Below, one piece after another: positions 17,692-33,482 of a DNA stretch of 48,438 nt. The stretch comes from Candidatus Fermentibacterota bacterium. Lineage in GTDB: Bacteria; JAFGKV01. A program made the position numbers and the translations under genes. A model generated the notes under the pieces. It did no database searches. It was not told where the DNA came from and saw only the letters and a program-made list of their open reading frames with translations. Numbering within the stretch: the first letter of the stretch is position 1; the number at the start of each line of letters is the position of its first letter. Where the stretch lies: contig JAUXFG010000005.1 of the NCBI GenBank assembly GCA_030620115.1, forward strand, positions 1 to 48,438, written 5' to 3'.

Positions 17692-17758
17692 GTAGGTCGG
17701 GTTAGCGTAGCGTAACCCGACATTCCAGCCGGAGTAGACATGGAATACCGACGCGCAT
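17692..17758 (+). pseudogene. REP hairpin h with N-terminal RAYT scrap
   Basis: REP unit h (17692-17726) is followed by the RAYT ribosome site and first 19 bases of the gene (17740-17758, ATGGAATACCGACGCGCAT), identical to 12721-12739. The match ends abruptly at the last base of the stop codon of the DUF3160 gene on the other strand, so this RAYT copy was truncated to six codons or inserted here with its remainder lost. Confidence 0.85.
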
Positions 17759-20463
17759 CACCTCGATAAGACCAAGGGACGACTGGCATGATGCGTGCCC
17801 GAGGCCAGGTGCAGTATATACGCCCCCGTCGGGATGGATACGTTCTCCTGCGCCTGCCAGTGTATGGCGAATAATCCGGATGCAAGCTGGCCCTGATACA
17901 GGACCGCTCGTTCCCGCCCGGCCATATCGAAGAGCGAGAGCCTGACTCTCCCCTTGGAGGGCAGCGAGAACGAAATCGTGCACACATCACGGACGGGATG
18001 CGGCTTGATTCCAATGATCTTGAGTTCCGTCGGCACGATGGCCGGCGGTGACTGAGCGGATCCCATGGTGATCGTGGTTCCCCAATCCAGGAGCGTGTTG
18101 CCGTCGGGATCCTCACAGTCGAACCAGAGCACGGCATCGCCCTCTGTCCAGCCCCCTGTGCTGAACGAGCCCTGATACAGATTCTCGCCCATAAGATCCA
18201 GGAACACGTCTATTCTCTCTCCCGACGGCGACGTCACCGTAAGAGACGGCTGCGGCACACCGCCATACCAATGCGGATCCCAGAAGACATCCACCGTCAC
18301 CGTCATGCCGGTGTCCACGACCTCGGGGGAGAGGATGAACGAAAAGGAGGGGATGGATTTTGTCTCGTGGAAGAAGTGTGCCGGGGAGGGATTGAGAAGC
18401 GAGACCGTACTGTCACGAAAGCTGGCGGTCCATACCGGCGGACTCGACGGTGTCGCTCCCGTCAGGAGTTCTCGCCACTCCTCATCAGTCATCCGCTGTG
18501 ACATAGGGAGAGTGAACTCATAGTACGGGAGGAATACGCCACGAGTGAGATAGATAACCCCGTTGCGGCGTACTGCCACCAGAAGTTCCCATGGATACCC
18601 GACGCCCTCTTCAAGACAATTCCGGTATATCAAATCGGTATGTACGTCCGCGATCACGGCAGTCTGGTCATCGGCTTCCCAATCCGGCTCCCCAGGTTCA
18701 AGCGACGGTTCGTCAACGGAGATGATCACCTGAAGATCGAGCCCGATGGCCGCCACCAATGAATCCTGGGCTGGAGAGAGAGGGATCCCCTCTAATTCGG
18801 CAATCGAAATATCGAGAAGCTCCATGCATAAGGAGCGAAGCATGTCCAGCCGCGCCTCATCCGATGCACCCAAGAGACCAAGCCCCGAAAGGCCCGCTTT
18901 CGTGTAGTCCGCCAGGGCCGCCAATCGTGCCCAGAGATACGGATTGGGCTCGACGTAGCCTTGGAGAAGCGCACTGGTCGGGGGCATGCCTGAGGTGTAT
19001 GACTGCTTGGCATAGAGGATGGTATCATGGCGCAGCTCTCCCCAACTCATGAGAGAGGTGGAAAGCTCGCGGTCTGACCACGCGGAGTTGGTCATGAACA
19101 CCGGCCAACCATCGGTCTTGTCAAAGAGGAGCGGCATGAGGGAGTAGAGCCAGTTGTAGTACAGATTTCCCGCCCATGTCGAATCGGAGATCGACTCCAT
19201 GTATTCGCACATGGCCTGAAGCTGGGCCACATAGAGAGGATCCGAGAACTCACCGTACACGTTGTCGAGGAGCCACATGGCACGGTCGCTCCCCAGAGAA
19301 GCCATGATGTCCAGCCCCCGGGGCATGGTCCTCTCGCAGTGAGGGACAACAAGCTGCTCGAACACATATGAATCTGGAATGAACCGCTGCCCCATGAATC
19401 GGAGGCCCTGCACGAACTCATCGTCGGCGATCTGGGGGAGCTCGAACTGTGCTCGTGCCTCTTGTATGAACCGGTCAAGCAGCGTGGAGTCTGCCAGCTC
19501 TGAGGTGGAAAGTTCCGCCATAGGGCTGCCGTAGACTGATTCGGCAAGCTCCTGATACATCAGAGGCGTCAGATCGTCGCTGCGTCCGACAAAAAACACG
19601 GTAGGCCAATAGATCGTGGTCCACTGAGTGTGGCAGGCAGGATGGCGGGCCATATCTCTCACCAGGAAAAGAGCCGACAGGGTGTGGTCCCTTACAAGCT
19701 CTGGATCACACCCCTCGTCCAGCGCGAACGTCATCCTGCCATACCACATCAGCGCCCCGAAATAGCACGCCAACGTATCGCTGGTGCTATAATGCCCCCG
19801 TACCTTGTACTGTGTATAATCTTCATCCAATCCAAAGATCGGAGAGAGGGTCATTTGATCATGGGCTCGAATCAGTGCAAGCTCGTCATTGACCAAGTCG
19901 GCGACATCCGGATGCGGGAGATGCGTGGAATCGAGCAGGCAGGCCGCCACTGAATGGAACGCAAGGAGGCGGTGTGCCGCCGAGAGCTCAACCTGGCCGG
20001 ATGCCTCCACCACGGTTGCAACTGCCGCTGACACCAGGGTTTCATTGAGGGACTGTGCGGCGCCGAAAAGCCTGGTGAGCTCGGCGCGCTTGAGCAGATG
20101 ATCAAAGAGGATGTGGTAGGCATGTAGAAACGCATCGGAACTCACGAATGACGGTATGCGTCGATCCCTGTTCACGTTGTAGAGATCATAGACCTCCGCA
20201 TGGCCAGGAATGGGGATCACCACAAAGCTGTTGGCCGCAATGAGATCCCGTTCCGTCTGCGTCAGATCAAAATCATCCGCATTCACCACATTGGAGAGAT
20301 CCGGCTCGATCTCCCACGGCTCCACCGAGGGCTCCACATTCACCGGAATCGGCACATAGGTAGCAAATGAGCTCTCCACTGGCTCGGTGATATCCGCCAG
20401 CATCTGATCGAGAGCAAATGAGGGGGAAACAAGCAGCAGGAAAAGAAAAAGACCGTATCGCAT
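17758..20463 (-). CDS. Secreted DUF3160-family protein with C-terminal sorting domain
   Basis: Secreted protein of about 901 residues. MRYGLFLFLLLVSPSFA is a signal peptide. The body matches DUF3160, with the diagnostic RIPSFVSSDAFLHAYHILFD; function of the family is unknown. An Ig-like segment follows (VTVDVFWDPHWYG...SLTVTSPSGERIDV). The last 80 residues are a FlgD/T9SS-like domain (PHPVRDVCTIS, LFDMAGRERAV, IPTGAYILHL, RPLVLSR). GGAGGT 5 nt before ATG 20463 fixes the start. The final base pairs of the stop codon fall at the junction with a RAYT scrap, so the stop may have been created by that insertion. Confidence 0.85.
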   Translation of the reverse strand: MRYGLFLFLLLVSPSFALDQMLADITEPVESSFATYVPIPVNVEPSVEPWEIEPDLSNVVNADDFDLTQTERDLIAANSFVVIPIPGHAEVYDLYNVNRDRRIPSFVSSDAFLHAYHILFDHLLKRAELTRLFGAAQSLNETLVSAAVATVVEASGQVELSAAHRLLAFHSVAACLLDSTHLPHPDVADLVNDELALIRAHDQMTLSPIFGLDEDYTQYKVRGHYSTSDTLACYFGALMWYGRMTFALDEGCDPELVRDHTLSALFLVRDMARHPACHTQWTTIYWPTVFFVGRSDDLTPLMYQELAESVYGSPMAELSTSELADSTLLDRFIQEARAQFELPQIADDEFVQGLRFMGQRFIPDSYVFEQLVVPHCERTMPRGLDIMASLGSDRAMWLLDNVYGEFSDPLYVAQLQAMCEYMESISDSTWAGNLYYNWLYSLMPLLFDKTDGWPVFMTNSAWSDRELSTSLMSWGELRHDTILYAKQSYTSGMPPTSALLQGYVEPNPYLWARLAALADYTKAGLSGLGLLGASDEARLDMLRSLCMELLDISIAELEGIPLSPAQDSLVAAIGLDLQVIISVDEPSLEPGEPDWEADDQTAVIADVHTDLIYRNCLEEGVGYPWELLVAVRRNGVIYLTRGVFLPYYEFTLPMSQRMTDEEWRELLTGATPSSPPVWTASFRDSTVSLLNPSPAHFFHETKSIPSFSFILSPEVVDTGMTVTVDVFWDPHWYGGVPQPSLTVTSPSGERIDVFLDLMGENLYQGSFSTGGWTEGDAVLWFDCEDPDGNTLLDWGTTITMGSAQSPPAIVPTELKIIGIKPHPVRDVCTISFSLPSKGRVRLSLFDMAGRERAVLYQGQLASGLFAIHWQAQENVSIPTGAYILHLASGTHHASRPLVLSR

Positions 20464-20657
20464 AACTACCTCCAAAGAAAGAAAGTTTCGGGCCGCTCAA
20501 TTCACCGTCTTCAATAATGCAGGGATCATGCCAAGTCCGGAACATGGATATCATGTGCAAGCCTCAGAGGGGCCGCCCATCTAACCCGAATGCGGAGCCG
20601 GATCGTGCAAGTCATGCACACCAGGTATGCATCTTATGCATGATGGTGGGCGCTGGG

Positions 20658-24990: not shown

Positions 24991-26568
24991 CTATTCCAAT
25001 CCATCCGCGAACCGAATCATCACATCTGTTGTTTCCGTCGCCGCAATTCGCACATGTTCCATTCGCTCCCCCACGAACGGATTGGTGACGAGGAGATCAT
25101 GACTACCCGGCCGAGCCGCCAATGGCCCTGACAAGGGCGTGGTTCCTACAGGGATTCCATCAAGCATCACGCGAGCCCAGGGATCAGTATGCACACAGAG
25201 GAAAGCCGTACTGTCGGCCATGGCGACGTGCAACGTCTCTCGCCTCGTGGGATGAATGTTTACCTTCAGCGTGAGCGGGAGATATGACGGATGGCGCATG
25301 GTGATCTCATGGCGACCAGAGGACAACTGGATAGGGGCCAAGAGTGGTGTGGTATCTCTTACTGATCCTTCGATAGAAATCTCAGCCCAAGGAATACAGA
25401 ACACCCAAAGCTCTCCGGGGAGATCAGCTTCTTCCGCCGCCGCGATGTTTTCTGATGCCCCCGCGAGAAAACCGGTCCTTCGGGGAATCAGCGTCGGGGG
25501 CTTGACGGACGAGTCAGCCATCTGGGGAAAGGAAAATCTCCGCTTCTCCTTCTGTTCCGACCCTGGTGCTCTTGGCTCCACAACAGATCGAGAAGGCTCA
25601 TCCGCAACCGTATCCCGCGGCATCGCCGAGATGGGGACGATGTCTTCCGTGACCAGACTGGACCTCCGCTCCTTGAGAAAGATAATGGCCGCGGCTCCGA
25701 CCAGCACTAGGAGAATCACGGCAAGGAACGATCCAACTCGCTTTCTCCTCACACGATCACCTTCTCCGGCGTTGGCTCGGGCTAACAATCGCATCGCCGA
25801 AACAGCATCCGTTGGACGAAGGGCAGGATCTTTATGCAGCAGAGCAGTGAGGAAAGACCTGGCCTCCTCTGCCAGAGGCTCGTCATATTGCGCAAGTGGA
25901 TCATACTCAACGATCTGAGCAAGAACCTCCTGAAATGTGTCTCCCGGGAAAGCCCTTCTGCCGGTGAGGGCTTCGTAGAGGGTGGCGCCAAGGGCGAAAA
26001 GATCCGAACGGGATGAAACAGACGTCCCGTGGAGTGTCTCCGGCGCCCAGTATGCCGGAGTGCCCAAGAATGTGTCACTCTGCGTGGTGCGAGGATCATC
26101 CATGATCCGCGCGAGTCCGAAATCGGCGAGTTTTGGGCCGCCTTTCCCTATGAGAATATTCGAGGGCTTGATGTCGCGATGAATGATCCCTGCCGCATGC
26201 ACGGCTCGAAGACCGTCCAGAAGGCTCGCGGCGAGCATACGAACCTTCTCCCACGGGAGCCTCCCGGACTCCTGGATGAGCCGGCGGAGATCTGGGCCTT
26301 CCAAGAATTCAGAGACCAAATAGAGTTTCCCCTCGATCTCGCCCGAGTCATATACCCTCACCACCGCGGGATGATCGATCCTCGCAAGCGCTTTCGCCTC
26401 TTGGATGAACCGCGCTCGCCGCTCTGCATCGCCATGCCCTCCCCCGGGAAGCACCTTGAGAAAGACCTCTCGTTCCAAATGCACATGGATCGCTCGAAAC
26501 GAGAGCGCCTGGCTGCTCTCGGCTACTGGAGCCAGAATCCGATACGGACCGATACACTCGTCAGCCAT
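24991..26568 (-). CDS. Membrane Ser/Thr protein kinase with PEGA-type sensor domains
   Basis: Hanks-type kinase of 525 residues. Catalytic Lys38 (VFLKVLP), helix C Glu57, HRDIKPSN (Asp132), DFGLA (149-153) and APE are present. The usual glycine-rich loop is replaced by LAPVAESSQALSF, with no glycine, which may lower ATP affinity. A transmembrane segment lies at about 280-297. The external C-terminal part has two PEGA-like domains (VFCIPWAEISIEGSVRDTTP and VHTDPWARVMLDGIPVGTTP). ATG 26568 overlaps the end of the sigma-54 activator gene by 8 nt, with AAGGA upstream. The kinase and the activator may form one pathway, with phosphorylation of the GAF or AAA+ protein as a testable guess. Confidence 0.9.
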   Translation of the reverse strand: MADECIGPYRILAPVAESSQALSFRAIHVHLEREVFLKVLPGGGHGDAERRARFIQEAKALARIDHPAVVRVYDSGEIEGKLYLVSEFLEGPDLRRLIQESGRLPWEKVRMLAASLLDGLRAVHAAGIIHRDIKPSNILIGKGGPKLADFGLARIMDDPRTTQSDTFLGTPAYWAPETLHGTSVSSRSDLFALGATLYEALTGRRAFPGDTFQEVLAQIVEYDPLAQYDEPLAEEARSFLTALLHKDPALRPTDAVSAMRLLARANAGEGDRVRRKRVGSFLAVILLVLVGAAAIIFLKERRSSLVTEDIVPISAMPRDTVADEPSRSVVEPRAPGSEQKEKRRFSFPQMADSSVKPPTLIPRRTGFLAGASENIAAAEEADLPGELWVFCIPWAEISIEGSVRDTTPLLAPIQLSSGRHEITMRHPSYLPLTLKVNIHPTRRETLHVAMADSTAFLCVHTDPWARVMLDGIPVGTTPLSGPLAARPGSHDLLVTNPFVGERMEHVRIAATETTDVMIRFADGLE

Positions 26569-28066
26569 TCCAGTCCTTCAATCGATAATGAAGCCACCGA
26601 AGGGAAACACCCAATGATTTGGCTGTCTTGGTCCTGTTTCCATCGAAGGAAGCGAGACGTTCGAGCACGATCTTCCTCACTAGATCATCCAATGGCGGAT
26701 CATTGTCTTCGAACACTTCGCCTGGCGACCTCCCATTGTGTTTTTCCGAGTCAAGGCCGAGATCGCGGCATTCGATCCGTTCGGTTTCGCTCACCAAGAC
26801 TGCCCGGTGAATCACATTACGCAATTCCCGCACATTCCCCGGCCAAACATACTGCTGCAACAATCTCCTCGTATCGGAGGAGAGATCCTTTGGGGGCAGC
26901 CCGAGTTCGTCCGTGAAATGCTGTACAAATCGGTCCGCGATGAGAAGCACATCTCGCCCGCGATCTCGGAGTGGAGGCATGGTGAGTGTAAAAACATTGA
27001 GGCGATAGAAGAGATCCTCGCGAAACTGTCCCTGCCGAAGCGCTTCGCTCATATCCCTATTCGTGGCAGCCACGATCCGCACGTCCGCATGCACCGTTCG
27101 CGTATCACCAACTGGCCGGAATTCCCCTTCCTCCAGAACACGAAGAAGCTTCGTCTGCGTGGACAGTGACGTATCGGCGATCTCATCCAGGAAGAAAGTG
27201 CCCCCATCTGCGAGCTCAAAAAGCCCCTTCTTGTCGAAAACTGCGCCGGTAAAGGAGCCTTTCTTGTGGCCGAAAAGCTCACTCTCCAAGAGCGTCTCCG
27301 GCAACGCTCCACAAAACTGGGCGACGAATGCTCTTCCGGCCCGTGGGCCCCGCGCATGCAGCGCCCGCGCCACAAGCTCCTTGCCCGTGCCGCTTTCCCC
27401 GAGGATAAGAACAGATGCGTCGGTAGGGAGTATCTTCTCCATGAGTTCGAACACACATCGCATCGCCGGGCTCTCCCCGATGAGTTCAGGCGGACGTCCC
27501 AACTCGGCGCGCAGGCTTCGATTCTCTGCCTCTAGTCGCTCGGCAAGCCCGAGGTTATCCAGGGCCACGGCTGCCTGCGTCGCCAATGCTTCCAGGAACT
27601 CCATGGCCTTCTGGTCCAGGGATGCCTCGGCGCCACGCCAATCGAGGTAGAGGACCCCGAGTATTCTATCTCTGACCTTCATTGGAGCACACGCAACTGA
27701 CCGGATGCCATGGATCACAAGGCTTTCTGAGGCGCCAAACCGTTCATCACTCTGGGCATCGATGGTCAAGACTGGTTCGCCGGTATCCAACACATTTCGC
27801 AACACGGATCCCGAGATCTGCAGCATGGCATGGGTAGCTTCCCTCTGGAAACCGCCTGTAGTCTCTATCTTGACCTCATCGCCACGATCCGATACGGGCG
27901 GGACTGTGCCCTCCCTCAGCAGCGCGAAGCCTCTGTCTGCATGCAGGAGCTCTTTGGCAAGCGCGACAATGGTTCGCAGCAGCTCATTGGACGTATGAAC
28001 GCCTCCCAGTTGCCGCGTGACGTCGAGCAAGGCCTCGTACTGCTCCCGTTCATTCTTGTACTTCAT
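26561..28066 (-). CDS. Sigma-54-dependent transcriptional activator with GAF domain
   Basis: Enhancer-binding protein of 501 residues. A GAF sensor domain (about 25-175) is followed by the AAA+ domain with Walker A GESGTGKE, the sigma-54 contact loop GSFTGA (Ser in place of the usual Ala at the second position), Walker B GGTFFLDEI and the REDLFYRLNVF segment. A Fis-type helix-turn-helix closes it (NRTKTAKSLGVSLRWLHYRL). It drives transcription from -24/-12 promoters by remodelling sigma-54 RNA polymerase. ATG 28066 overlaps the stop of the lipoprotein gene (ATGA), with GGGGAG 6-7 nt upstream. I found no convincing -24/-12 promoter in the window. Confidence 0.93.
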   Translation of the reverse strand: MKYKNEREQYEALLDVTRQLGGVHTSNELLRTIVALAKELLHADRGFALLREGTVPPVSDRGDEVKIETTGGFQREATHAMLQISGSVLRNVLDTGEPVLTIDAQSDERFGASESLVIHGIRSVACAPMKVRDRILGVLYLDWRGAEASLDQKAMEFLEALATQAAVALDNLGLAERLEAENRSLRAELGRPPELIGESPAMRCVFELMEKILPTDASVLILGESGTGKELVARALHARGPRAGRAFVAQFCGALPETLLESELFGHKKGSFTGAVFDKKGLFELADGGTFFLDEIADTSLSTQTKLLRVLEEGEFRPVGDTRTVHADVRIVAATNRDMSEALRQGQFREDLFYRLNVFTLTMPPLRDRGRDVLLIADRFVQHFTDELGLPPKDLSSDTRRLLQQYVWPGNVRELRNVIHRAVLVSETERIECRDLGLDSEKHNGRSPGEVFEDNDPPLDDLVRKIVLERLASFDGNRTKTAKSLGVSLRWLHYRLKDWNG

Positions 28067-29283: not shown

Positions 29284-29955
29284 ATGGCGGTCCCTGCGAA
29301 GATCCAGTCCACGAAGCGCAGGAGGAAACACAGTCCGGTGCAAAAGAAAGAATCCGACATGCTTGCTCATGCGGTCTCGCTGGTTGATCGAGGGCGGCTG
29401 GACGAAGGGGAAATCATCCTTGAGGAGCTTCGCGGCAAGGACCCGAAGGATCCGCTTATTGTGGGCTCTCTTGGTGTGATCGCGTTGCAGCGGGGAGAGT
29501 ATGGGAAAGCTGAGCAACTCCTTGATATGGCTCTTGAATACGAACCGTCATTCTATCCCGCCTTGGTGAATAAGGGCATTCTTCTTGTCAACCTGGGTGA
29601 TGTGGAGGGGGCTGTTCCCCTCTACAGGAAAGCAATCGAGCTCAATCCACGGTATGTTGAGGCTTATTCGAATCTAGGAAATGCACAGGCTCTGCTCGGC
29701 AAGACAGAGGAAGCATTGAAAGAGTATGAGAGGGCGCTCAAAATCCGCCCGGGTTTTTCTGACGCCCACTACAATCTTGCGTATACCCTGGTACGCACGG
29801 GAAGAACAAAAGAGGCCCAGGAAGAGCTAGAACACGCGGTATCACTCAATCCTGCACATAGATCAGCTCTCCAGCTCAAACTCGCGCTTCATGAGGAGCT
29901 GGGCGAGGAAACCAGAGCCGCCGTGACGCAGAGGATGCTGGAAAGGCTGCAATAG
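29284..29955 (+). CDS. TPR-repeat protein
   Basis: Soluble protein of 223 residues with a basic N-terminus (KRRRKHSPVQKK) and at least four tetratricopeptide repeats (for example AEQLLDMALEYEPSFYPALV, AVPLYRKAIELNPRYVEAYS and ALKEYERALKIRPGFSDAHY). TPRs mediate protein-protein contacts; the partner is unknown. It is divergent from the lipoprotein operon and 128 bp ahead of the receiver-DnaA gene on the same strand. A strong AAAGGAG sits only 1 nt before ATG 29284, so the real start may be a few codons later. Confidence 0.82.
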   Translation: MAVPAKIQSTKRRRKHSPVQKKESDMLAHAVSLVDRGRLDEGEIILEELRGKDPKDPLIVGSLGVIALQRGEYGKAEQLLDMALEYEPSFYPALVNKGILLVNLGDVEGAVPLYRKAIELNPRYVEAYSNLGNAQALLGKTEEALKEYERALKIRPGFSDAHYNLAYTLVRTGRTKEAQEELEHAVSLNPAHRSALQLKLALHEELGEETRAAVTQRMLERLQ

Positions 29956-30083
29956 GAATGGTTGACCCTTTAGGCAGGCGCAGGGCAACCGAAGACTTGA
30001 CAGCATCGCTTCTCTATTCCTCCTTGGGATGGCGACAGGGGAACTGAATCCTGACTGGTGTATGTCTTTGTAAGGAGTAAGGG

Positions 30084-31256
30084 ATGCCGAAGGAGACCAT
30101 CCTGGTTGTAGACGACGAGCAGAATATCAGGAAAGCAATGGCAACGGTCCTTCAACGGGAAGGATACGACACCGTCGAAGCTCGTGATGGCCGAGAAGCG
30201 CTCCGAAGCGTCATATTTGATAAGCCAGACCTGATCTTGCTTGATATCATGCTCCCCACCATGAACGGCTATGACGTCACGATCAAGCTAAGAGACGACG
30301 AGCGGACCAAACATATTCCTATCATAATGGTGACAGCCAAAGGCCAGATCTCCGACAGGATCCACGGCCTCGACCTTGGCGCCGATGATTACATCACAAA
30401 ACCGTTCGATCTCAGAGAACTCACCGCCCGAGTGAACGCGATGCTACGGCGAAGGGTCTTAACGACTCATCCTGCTCCGGCTCGAGCCAAAGAGGACAGA
30501 AAGGTTACGCTCCCAAGCCCTCCGCCGGATATGACGTTCGAGACATTCATCGTGGGCCCGGCCAATCGAGAAGCCCACGATGCTGCTTTCGCCGTCTCAG
30601 AAAACCCAGGCGTGCTTCACAACCCCCTCTTCTTCTATGGGGAAGCCGGCATCGGGAAGTCTCATCTCATCGCCTGTATCGCCAACCAGATCCAGAAGGA
30701 CTACGGTGCCGAGAGGGTGGCCTATGCGACCTCTGAGCTCTTCGAGGAAAGGATACGTGAGGCCATCCTCACGCATCAGCTGGAGGCCATGTTGCAAGGG
30801 CTTGGCGAGCTCGTAATCCTGGCCGTGGACGACCTGCAATTCCTCGCTCGTGCTCGATCACAGCAAGACAGGACCCTAGAGATATTCATCGAACTGTACG
30901 AGAAAGCACGGCAAGTCGTGGTCTGTAGCGACCGCCCGCCCCATGAACTCAACGAACTCACCGATATGGTACAGAGCTTGTTCAGAAAGGGCAAGGTGGT
31001 CGAGCTTACCGTGCCCACGCCCTACCATAGAGGGAAAATACTGAGGGCAGTGGCTCAACGGAACGGTTGGCGGATTCCCGAGCCGTCGCTGATCTATTTG
31101 GCCCGCAACCTCACGGCCAATGTGAGAACATTGATCGGCGTGGCCAAACGCCTCGCCGCCGAATCAACGCTCACCGGCAAGGCCATCAGCCCGGCAGTCA
31201 TCGACGAGGTCATAGCCCAAGTGCGCTCTCTGGGCACGCAGCGTCGGCGACGCTGA
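30084..31256 (+). CDS. Receiver domain fused to a DnaA-like AAA+ ATPase
   Basis: A 390-residue fusion. Residues 1-123 are a complete receiver domain: Asp10-Asp11, phospho-acceptor Asp54 (ILLDIMLP), Thr84 and Lys106. After a Pro-rich linker, residues 150-385 match DnaA domain III: TFETFIVGPANREAHDAA, Walker A GEAGIGKS (186-193), Walker B ILAVDDLQFL, sensor 1 VVVCSDRPPHEL, and sensor 2 NVRTLIGVA. The arginine-finger segment that reads SRF in DnaA is SLF here. DnaA domain IV, which binds DnaA boxes, is absent. It may be a phosphorylation-controlled regulator of replication or transcription, analogous to Hda, but this is inference. AAGGAG 8 nt before ATG 30084 supports the start. No histidine kinase is adjacent. 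Confidence 0.9.
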   Translation: MPKETILVVDDEQNIRKAMATVLQREGYDTVEARDGREALRSVIFDKPDLILLDIMLPTMNGYDVTIKLRDDERTKHIPIIMVTAKGQISDRIHGLDLGADDYITKPFDLRELTARVNAMLRRRVLTTHPAPARAKEDRKVTLPSPPPDMTFETFIVGPANREAHDAAFAVSENPGVLHNPLFFYGEAGIGKSHLIACIANQIQKDYGAERVAYATSELFEERIREAILTHQLEAMLQGLGELVILAVDDLQFLARARSQQDRTLEIFIELYEKARQVVVCSDRPPHELNELTDMVQSLFRKGKVVELTVPTPYHRGKILRAVAQRNGWRIPEPSLIYLARNLTANVRTLIGVAKRLAAESTLTGKAISPAVIDEVIAQVRSLGTQRRRR

Positions 31257-31404: not shown

Positions 31405-32307
31405 ATGCGAACACCCCTGACGATCGCGTTCCTCTTTCTCGTTTCATTCATTGCCCCAGCCCTGGCCGACGAAGGCCGCGCTCAGGCCATGGGCTTCTGG
31501 GACATCTTCACGCTCACAAAAGTGTGGCTGGCTGCCATATTCTGCGTGGGCGGCCTTGGCCTCCTGGTAGCCGGCGGGGCGAGACGGAGACTCAGGCTCA
31601 TATTCATGGGTCTTGCTTTCTTTCTCTGGGGTGTGGCCCCGGTGCTCCCTCTGGGGAGTTTCGCGCGCGGAATGGCACTTCACCCGAGCCCCATGTGTAT
31701 GACCACAAGGCCTTTCCAGTTCCTGGCCGCCGGCAGAGGCATCCCCATCGTATTCCTCGCCCTTCTCGCGTTCACGGCAGTTATGTCCATCTTGGGAACA
31801 AAACTTTTCTGTGGATGGGTCTGCCCCATCGGGGCCATCCAGGAACTCGTTCACGCGATTCCAATCCCCGAGCGATTGAGGAAGAAAGTGCCCTTTGCGT
31901 GGAGTAACGCCCTCCGCGTGGCGGTGTTTGTTGCCTTCCTGGTTCTTGTCTTCGCGTTCAAGTACTACATCTACGAGTACTTGAACCCCTTCCATTTCCT
32001 ACACTGGGAATTCGACGCGCTCAGCATTGCAGTGATCGCCATTGTGCTTATCGCCTCTCTCTCTCTTTATCGCCCCTTCTGCTATCACCTCTGCCCCTTG
32101 GGCCTCCTTACATGGATTCTGGAACAGATCGCCATTACCAAGGTCAGGCTCGACAAGAAGCGGTGTACCTCATGCGGGCTGTGCGTCGCCAAGAGCCCCT
32201 GCCCTTCGGTGTCTGCCATCCTGGACGAGAAATCCGTGCGCCCTGACTGTCATGCATGCGGGCGATGTATCGAGGTCTGCCCCGAGGGAGCCCTCAGCTT
32301 CGAATAG
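31405..32307 (+). CDS. NapH/YccM-type membrane polyferredoxin
   Basis: Inner-membrane electron carrier of about 300 residues. The N-terminus is a signal or membrane anchor (TIAFLFLVSFIAPALA), followed by several membrane segments. CGWVCPIGAIQEL and CYHLCPLGLLTW are the paired Cys-x3-Cys-Pro motifs of the NapH/RdxA/MauN group. Two soluble [4Fe-4S] sites end the protein (CTSCGLCVAKSPCPS and CHACGRCIEVCPEGAL). Such proteins pass electrons between quinol or ferredoxin and a partner reductase; no partner is adjacent, though the redox cluster starts 1.3 kb downstream on the other strand. AGGAG 8 nt before ATG 31405 fixes the start. Confidence 0.85.
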   Translation: MRTPLTIAFLFLVSFIAPALADEGRAQAMGFWDIFTLTKVWLAAIFCVGGLGLLVAGGARRRLRLIFMGLAFFLWGVAPVLPLGSFARGMALHPSPMCMTTRPFQFLAAGRGIPIVFLALLAFTAVMSILGTKLFCGWVCPIGAIQELVHAIPIPERLRKKVPFAWSNALRVAVFVAFLVLVFAFKYYIYEYLNPFHFLHWEFDALSIAVIAIVLIASLSLYRPFCYHLCPLGLLTWILEQIAITKVRLDKKRCTSCGLCVAKSPCPSVSAILDEKSVRPDCHACGRCIEVCPEGALSFE

Positions 32308-32480: not shown

Positions 32481-32583
32481 CAGATTCTTCGGTCGCTCCC
32501 CTCCCTCAGAATGACAAACGTCTACTCACATCCAATGCCAACCACCCCTGTCATTCTGAGCAACTCCAAGGAGCGAAGAATCT
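32481..32583. repeat. Inverted-repeat element (BIME-like), copy 4
   Basis: 103 bp: AGATTCTTCGGTCGCTCC...CAGAATGACA, about 32-nt spacer, TGTCATTCTGAG...GAAGAATCT. The spacer (ACTCACATCCAATGCCAACC) is related to that of copies 2 and 3. It lies in the 1.3-kb gene-poor stretch 32308-33604. Confidence 0.85.
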
Positions 32584-32655
32584 CTCCTCCTTCCTCCGTC
32601 ATCTCATTCGATGTTCCTCGAGAGAGCTCTCAGCCGTCAACCGGATGGATATTGC

Positions 32656-32732
32656 ATCTCTGGAGGGACGCGCTCCGTCGCGTCCGTCGTATCGGTATCA
32701 ACGGCCATGACGGAGCATGGCCCTCCATCATC
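32656..32732 (+). repeat. Two-hairpin repeat family, copy C (full)
   Basis: First hairpin GGACGCGCTCCGTCGCGTCC and second hairpin GGCCATGACGGAGCATGGCC, separated by GTCGTATCGGTATCAAC. An inverted full copy is at 22812-22890 and a half copy at 3995-4042. Confidence 0.8.
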
Positions 32733-32830
32733 CTCTCGTTCGACGTTGGACGCAGTGAGCTTGCCCCTCGCCCCAGATCATAGATTCAAGATTGACAGAT
32801 TCCTTCCCATTCCAGCTTTCCGGGTTTCCT

Positions 32831-32866
32831 AAATCTCTAGTAAATCCATGGATTTACTAGAGATTT
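32831..32866. repeat. Perfect 36-bp palindrome, copy 2
   Basis: Exact copy of the palindrome at 4532-4567, here extended by one matching base on each side (32830-32867). The upstream 55 bp (CATAGATTCAAGATTGACAG, ATTCCAGCTTTCC) also match the first copy. Confidence 0.87.
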
Positions 32867-32867
32867 A

Positions 32868-33482
32868 TCCCAATGCCGAAAGAGGGGGCATCGTACGCAG
32901 GGTCTGGGATGTTTGCCGGTCGATGTCGGTTCTCGAAAAACGAGTGAATCGGAACCACACTGTGAGTTCACTGGATACTCTATCACTTCAACAATTGTTG
33001 AAGTCTTGAAGTATTGGTGTGCGTCTTGGAAAAACCGGGCGTTCGGGACCAGACTGTCGCCTTGGTAGGCAGCTAAGGGGGATTCGGATCCTCTCCAAAA
33101 GTCGTCACATTCAGACCGAAATTACTGGTCACTTACCTCCGAAATTCGTGGCAAGCTATTCCCGAAATAGGTGGTAGCTTTGGACGGAAATCCGCAGGTG
33201 GAACGGTTGAAGGGGAGCGGTGAAAGCACTGAGGAGACAAAAGATGCGGGTTATGGCGGATGAACGGATCTTGGGCGACAGTGAGTTCGTAGAGAAGGCG
33301 ATGCACCCCAGTTGATCGCAGATTCATGGCCTCCATATTGCAGGTTCTGCACCAACTTCGCTCAAATACTGTTCGATGCGCAACGGGCTGCGCAAGCATG
33401 GCTTGCTCGGGAAAAGCGGTAGCATGGCTACCGCACTCCAAAGGGGGAGAAGGTCGTGCGACCAGATCCATTGAGATGCTAC
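32868..33482. other. Gene-poor stretch
   Basis: Apart from the transposase fragment at 33220-33315 I see no coding region. A short perfect inverted repeat CAACAATTGTTG is at 32990-33001 and small dyads occur near 33382-33435 (GCGCAACGGGCTGCGCAAGC, GCGGTAGCATGGCTACCGC). Overall this looks like decayed mobile DNA between the polyferredoxin gene and the redox cluster. Confidence 0.45.
33220..33315 (+). pseudogene. Fragment of a long-form Y1 (REP-type) transposase
   Basis: A short frame reads VKALRRQKMRVMADERILG followed by DSEFVEKAMHPS and a stop. DERILGDSEFVE is typical of the region after the catalytic domain in longer Y1_Tnp-family transposases. There is no catalytic HUH domain upstream: a stop codon lies 9 nt before the fragment. 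It is a different transposase type from the intact RAYT at 12721. I judge it a decayed remnant. Confidence 0.5.

Follow-up and report, generated by a model that had tools for sequence, protein, structure and literature searches.

A receiver domain fused to a DnaA-type ATPase core: a DnaA motor that looks re-used for signalling, not replication

To our knowledge, DnaA-type ATPases have been met almost only in replication, apart from Hda and the DnaC/IstB loaders. Response regulators in which a receiver is coupled to an AAA+ domain are known (NtrC), as is a DnaA domain III without domain IV (Hda), and receivers of the PhoB type usually dimerise via alpha4-beta5-alpha5. In E. coli DnaA, residues R285, R281 and R227 serve the contact between one DnaA and the next, and R245 contacts single-stranded DNA (PMC5742627). 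Hda requires its arginine finger, R153, together with an N-terminal clamp motif, QLSLPL (PMC3836487). Here we describe a gene that joins a receiver to DnaA domain III, in the genome of a bacterium from a little-sampled lineage. The gene lies in a window of 48,438 nucleotides (the whole stretch of DNA that was analysed), and its features are collected in Table 1.

Table 1. Positions in the window of the receiver-DnaA gene, its parts and its two flanking genes
Feature	Position	Strand	Basis
Receiver-DnaA(III) response regulator gene, ATG start, 390 aa	30084..31256	+	ORF, Pfam, NCBIfam; orthologues in two genomes
Ribosome-binding site AAGGAG, 6 nt upstream of the start codon of the receiver-DnaA gene	30072..30077	+	sequence
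PhoB-type receiver domain, residues 6-117	30099..30434	+	PF00072; best model TIGR02154 PhoB; residues
Codon of the phospho-acceptor D54	30243-30245	+	residue check
Variable linker, residues 126-146, 19% identity between orthologues	30459..30521	+	ortholog alignment
DnaA domain III AAA+ core, residues 149-306	30528..31001	+	PF00308; AF2 model vs structures
Walker A GEAGIGKS, residues 186-193	30639..30662	+	sequence
Leu299 in place of the arginine finger (R285 of E. coli DnaA, R153 of Hda)	30978..30980	+	alignment
AAA+ lid, residues 311-384, with sensor 2 NVR (R348)	31014..31235	+	alignment
TPR protein gene, 223 aa, directly 5' of the receiver-DnaA gene	29284..29955	+	Pfam TPR; synteny in three genomes
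NapH-like ferredoxin membrane protein gene, 3' of the receiver-DnaA gene	31405..32307	+	profile match; synteny in 2/3 genomes

In a Pfam scan, the 390-aa protein matched Response_reg (PF00072, E 4e-33) in its first part and Bac_DnaA (PF00308, E 6e-43) in its second, with no match to Bac_DnaA_C (PF08299, domain IV). The curated NCBIfam models closest to the receiver were PhoB, RpaB and YycF, with PhoB the best, and the top model for residues 143-381 was the DnaA equivalog TIGR00362 (E 1e-59). The receiver has all three residues expected of a response regulator (D54, T84 and K106), and the ATP site of the second half is complete (Walker A, Walker B, sensor 1 CSDRPP and sensor 2 NVR). The arginine finger R285 of E. 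coli DnaA is replaced by a leucine, and the segment reads SLF. The residue check, Pfam, NCBIfam and the alignment thus agree with a preliminary description of this DNA, which had reported an intact receiver (Asp54, Thr84, Lys106), a DnaA-type AAA+ domain with Walker A, sensor 1 and an NVR sensor 2, a missing DNA-binding domain IV and SLF in place of SRF. Beyond that description, Box VII R281 is a methionine, and R227, the basic residue R245 that contacts single-stranded DNA, and E249/F250 are lost as well in the alignment.

The structural comparisons gave the same assignment for the second half. DnaA proteins headed the list when solved structures were searched with it, and an AlphaFold2 model of the AAA+ half (residues 145-385, pLDDT mostly 75-94) best matched domain III of B. 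subtilis and T. maritima DnaA (8btg/8bv3, target TM 0.85-0.88); Hda structures were among the neighbours of the model, but more distant than DnaA domain III. The alignment used for the model (A4) had no receiver rows, and therefore the receiver is not resolved in it; two mixed alignments were dropped for structure prediction, one of which visibly mis-registered DnaA rows onto the receiver and the other of which was likely to. The preliminary description had left room for a sigma-54 or other AAA+ clade, an assignment rejected by profiles, structure and phylogeny, all of which point to DnaA. A Sigma54_activat match (PF00158) was absent from the 390-aa protein in the Pfam scan and present in the neighbouring gene at 26561-28066. 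An IstB/DnaC helicase loader was likewise rejected, as PF01695 scored 23 bits, under its cut-off, compared with 147 for Bac_DnaA.

Full-length orthologues (68-69% identity) are present in two related genomes of the same family. Codon changes between the orthologues fall mostly at third positions and, by this measure, the gene is under purifying selection. Conservation is highest in the AAA+ lid (80% identity) and the receiver (77%), and the linker varies freely (19%). A sequencing error joining two genes, which had been named as a possible refutation, is excluded because of these orthologues and five paralogous fusions in the source genome itself. That the fusion is an artefact, either of assembly or as a decaying gene without function, is hardly credible: the orthologues already refute it, its presence in three genomes, the six fusions of the source genome, the purifying selection and the ribosome-binding site all stand against it, and we found no point in its support.

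In each of the three genomes the TPR gene directly precedes the receiver-DnaA gene. The NapH-like gene follows it in two of them, a loose association. The neighbourhood contained no DnaA gene or oriC. The same window also holds two adjoining genes on the minus strand (24991-28066), one for a Ser/Thr protein kinase that matches PEGA weakly and one for a GAF-sigma54 AAA+ regulator, a gene for a 905-aa DUF3160 protein (17758-20475), and an intergenic region with several inverted repeats (32482-33014), where a perfect palindrome of 19+19 nt is found at 32830-32867.

The source genome has 12 Bac_DnaA domains, and only one of the frames that carry them also has domain IV; the ordinary DnaA, with domain IV, is L027. 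Receiver-DnaA fusions account for six of the 12 domains, and five others follow MshEN domains. Four paralogues (C291, C116, C253 and C65) are long forms that carry about 220-260 additional C-terminal residues, and a further one (C160) has a degenerate receiver without the phospho-acceptor Asp. The C160-type paralogue (L025:3432-4952), which has a proline-rich basic tail, is conserved in all three genomes, and its neighbours are an Exo_endo_phos gene and a gene for a large protein with ATP-grasp matches. In the long paralogues, ∼190 conserved residues follow the DnaA lid (proteins of L021, L022, L023 and L024; alignment A1). This extension matched no Pfam family and had a weak match to the EngA/Der G domain (E 0.008); judged from such a match, it is possibly a degenerate GTPase.

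We compared the 18 receiver-DnaA proteins of the three genomes. All of them keep the Walker A Lys, the two Walker B Asp, the sensor 1 Asp and the sensor 2 Arg (equivalents of E. coli K178, D235, D236, D269 and R334), and R281, R227, R245 and F250 are missing from every one. Fifteen of the 18 have also lost the finger R285; three paralogues keep the arginine, and therefore some may still act in trans. In the tree, the receiver-DnaA proteins form one clade (support 99/93, or 97/91 once two long branches are removed) that groups apart from the replication DnaAs, and in a second, midpoint-drawn tree the MshEN-DnaA domains fall between the clade and the replication DnaAs.

The three genomes together have 12 long receiver-DnaA loci, and seven of these directly adjoin a histidine kinase gene. 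The kinase is of the HisKA-HATPase type and encoded upstream at C253, L033 and L034; at L035 and L036 the upstream gene encodes a hybrid kinase with an Hpt domain and two receivers, and at L031 and L032 a cNMP-binding kinase is encoded downstream. This adjacency, together with the intact receiver residues, supports the earlier idea of two-component phospho-control. Among the window genes scanned, no kinase gene lay beside the 390-aa member.

Four of the five MshEN-DnaA domains of the source genome lie in one cluster, on contig C14 (L026:2623-19244, G000), which comprises a pilin-like gene, a prepilin peptidase gene, three MshEN-DnaA genes, one further MshEN gene and genes for a TonB-C protein and a PilB/GspE-type ATPase. 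The MshEN-DnaA genes sit between those for the prepilin peptidase and the ATPase, and the order from prepilin peptidase through the MshEN-DnaA genes is the same in G001 (L135). One C14 protein has two DnaA domains separated by >1000 residues rich in helical, charged sequence. The DnaA-type ATPases of this cluster seem to be parts of a system for pili or secretion. In G118, a MshEN-DnaA gene is found in an operon with genes for a MglA-like GTPase and a roadblock/LC7 protein and two DUF4388 genes (L131:864-5177), possibly a polarity module that uses a DnaA-type ATPase. G382 (L132) has a MshEN-DnaA gene too, and in G131 such a gene adjoins a MshEN gene.

Other genomes join DnaA domain III to other partners. 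Giant proteins of about 1,750-2,000 aa consist of a TPR array and then a terminal DnaA ATPase domain without domain IV (L129:4958-10999 and L130:480-5732; the Pfam scan was made on L130, and L129 was judged by its DnaA match and frame). The array is fused to DnaA III in G301, with a similar case in G014. The fusions lend some weight to the pairing of the TPR gene with the receiver-DnaA gene, though the TPR similarity of these fusion partners is only generic. In G210, a gene for a 620-aa DnaA-III protein is followed by two single-domain receiver genes, an unfused pairing of receiver and DnaA (L153:1793-4970), and further partners of DnaA III were seen in G107, G230 and G240. The MshEN-DnaA and TPR-DnaA proteins and the DnaA III with separate receivers suggest that the AAA+ domain of DnaA serves signalling more widely.

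In about 585 genomes searched, the receiver-DnaA fusion was found only in the three genomes of this one family. We sampled 386 genomes across the domain and scored the best few candidates per genome, with thresholds set low enough for a receiver-DnaA fusion to clear them easily, and fusions were scored only in these three genomes. At that same sensitivity, none was found in 195 further genomes of another phylum (one of them already sampled) or in three small phyla. A search of genome contigs for related loci returned only OmpR-type receivers, and viral contigs contained no close relative of the DnaA half. Among the matches listed, no plasmid match at E 1e-30 or better reached 80% of the query, the highest coverage being about 72%, and the annotated ones were dnaA; in the phage collection, the DnaA half matched records without annotation, at 33-36% identity. 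The open-access full texts searched yielded no account of receiver-DnaA or MshEN-DnaA proteins, nor of a receiver combined with DnaA III that has expanded within a single lineage and lies next to kinase genes; the architecture may already be listed in domain databases such as InterPro.

We lean towards a response regulator whose DnaA-derived AAA+ output has left replication and serves as a phosphorylation-gated switch of protein interaction, with the TPR protein as its probable partner. We favour this switch because the receiver is intact and the ATP site complete, domain IV, the finger and the contact residues are lost, and the TPR gene is conserved together with the receiver-DnaA gene. A histidine kinase would phosphorylate D54, the phosphorylated residue would alter the pairing of the receivers, and the altered pairing would change how the AAA+ domains are arranged or which nucleotide state they adopt. 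A surface dependent on ATP or ADP would then bind or release another protein, for which the product of the neighbouring TPR gene is the likeliest candidate. Such a protein would be neither a DNA-binding regulator nor a stimulator of DnaA-ATP hydrolysis. We counted in favour of the switch the monophyly of the fusions, their kinase neighbours, the TPR synteny (3/3), the TPR-DnaA fusion of L130, the G210 receivers and the MshEN relatives, and against it the lack of a kinase beside the 390-aa member in the scanned window genes, the generic TPR similarity and the three paralogues with a finger arginine. In a narrower form of the same reading, the protein would regulate surface machinery or polarity and the TPR protein would be an adaptor to pili or secretion. 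This is suggested by the MshEN-DnaA genes between prepilin peptidase and PilB/GspE-type ATPase in the source genome, with an order partly shared in G001, and by the MglA-roadblock-DUF4388 operon of G118, but the 390-aa member lies outside any such cluster and is linked to it by paralogy only, and MglA was looked for in the source genome and not found. We regard this form as doubtful.

The preliminary description had instead proposed Hda-like control of DnaA. Aligned E. coli Hda shows both R153 and the clamp motif, whereas the 390-aa protein shows neither: its N-terminus is filled by the receiver, and the sole Q-containing clamp-like string, QSLF, is not conserved in the orthologues. As the finger, the other contact residues and the clamp motif are missing, a classical role in a DnaA filament or as Hda is unlikely. 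The proposal also sits badly with the separate grouping of the domain from replication DnaAs and with the sister modules, which are found in pilus/secretion or MglA-GTPase clusters and not at replication loci. Phospho-control of an Hda-like trigger of DnaA ATP hydrolysis is therefore very improbable in our judgement; a DnaA-type AAA+ domain without domain IV is what Hda has, and Hda is among the structural neighbours of the model, yet sequence and structure are closer to DnaA than to Hda. Somewhat less improbable is a brake on replication of the chain-terminator type, in which the intact ATP site would take the finger of the host DnaA and the protein's own dead finger face would cap the filament upon phosphorylation. 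The kept ATP site and sensor 2 and the lost finger face (R285, R281) are the asymmetry expected of a cap, and an ordinary, domain IV-bearing DnaA (L027) is present in the host to be capped. Against the cap, the protein has also lost R227, which in DnaA makes another contact between subunits (PMC5742627), and neither DnaA nor oriC is nearby. Nor is a role in replication suggested by the six divergent paralogues of each genome or by sister modules that sit in pilus-type or MglA loci. Taken together, the replication-linked explanations remain unlikely.

The phosphorylation-gated switch may be one case of a broader pattern, to which we give about even weight: in several bacterial lineages the DnaA AAA+ domain would have been withdrawn from replication to power a signalling system as its ATPase core, with receiver, MshEN, TPR or MglA/roadblock inputs, and here eleven such modules would be under phospho-control and, probably, c-di-GMP control. 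A DnaA motor as the output of a response regulator, along with MshEN-DnaA and TPR-DnaA relatives, would show that the DnaA-type ATPase is a reusable signalling part. For annotation, this means that a PF00308 match alone does not identify a replication initiator.

Compared with known systems, the 390-aa protein is closest to DnaA domain III, its best match in both sequence and structure, with which it shares Walker A and B, sensor 1 and sensor 2, but it lacks domains I, II and IV and has lost R285, R281, R227 and R245. Like Hda, it has a DnaA-type AAA+ domain III without domain IV; unlike Hda, it has a receiver and neither the clamp motif nor the finger, and its identity in structural alignment is about 20% to Hda versus 34% to DnaA. 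With regulators of the NtrC type it shares the coupling of a receiver to an AAA+ output, while its AAA+ domain belongs to the DnaA clade, with no Sigma54_activat match and no Fis-type helix-turn-helix. The receiver is like that of the OmpR/PhoB regulators, whose winged-helix output is replaced here by the DnaA AAA+ domain. The MshEN-DnaA proteins have the same DnaA III module without domain IV, on neighbouring branches of the tree; they differ in their input, a MshEN domain (of the c-di-GMP-binding type), and in that the finger is still as in DnaA in some of the five modules.
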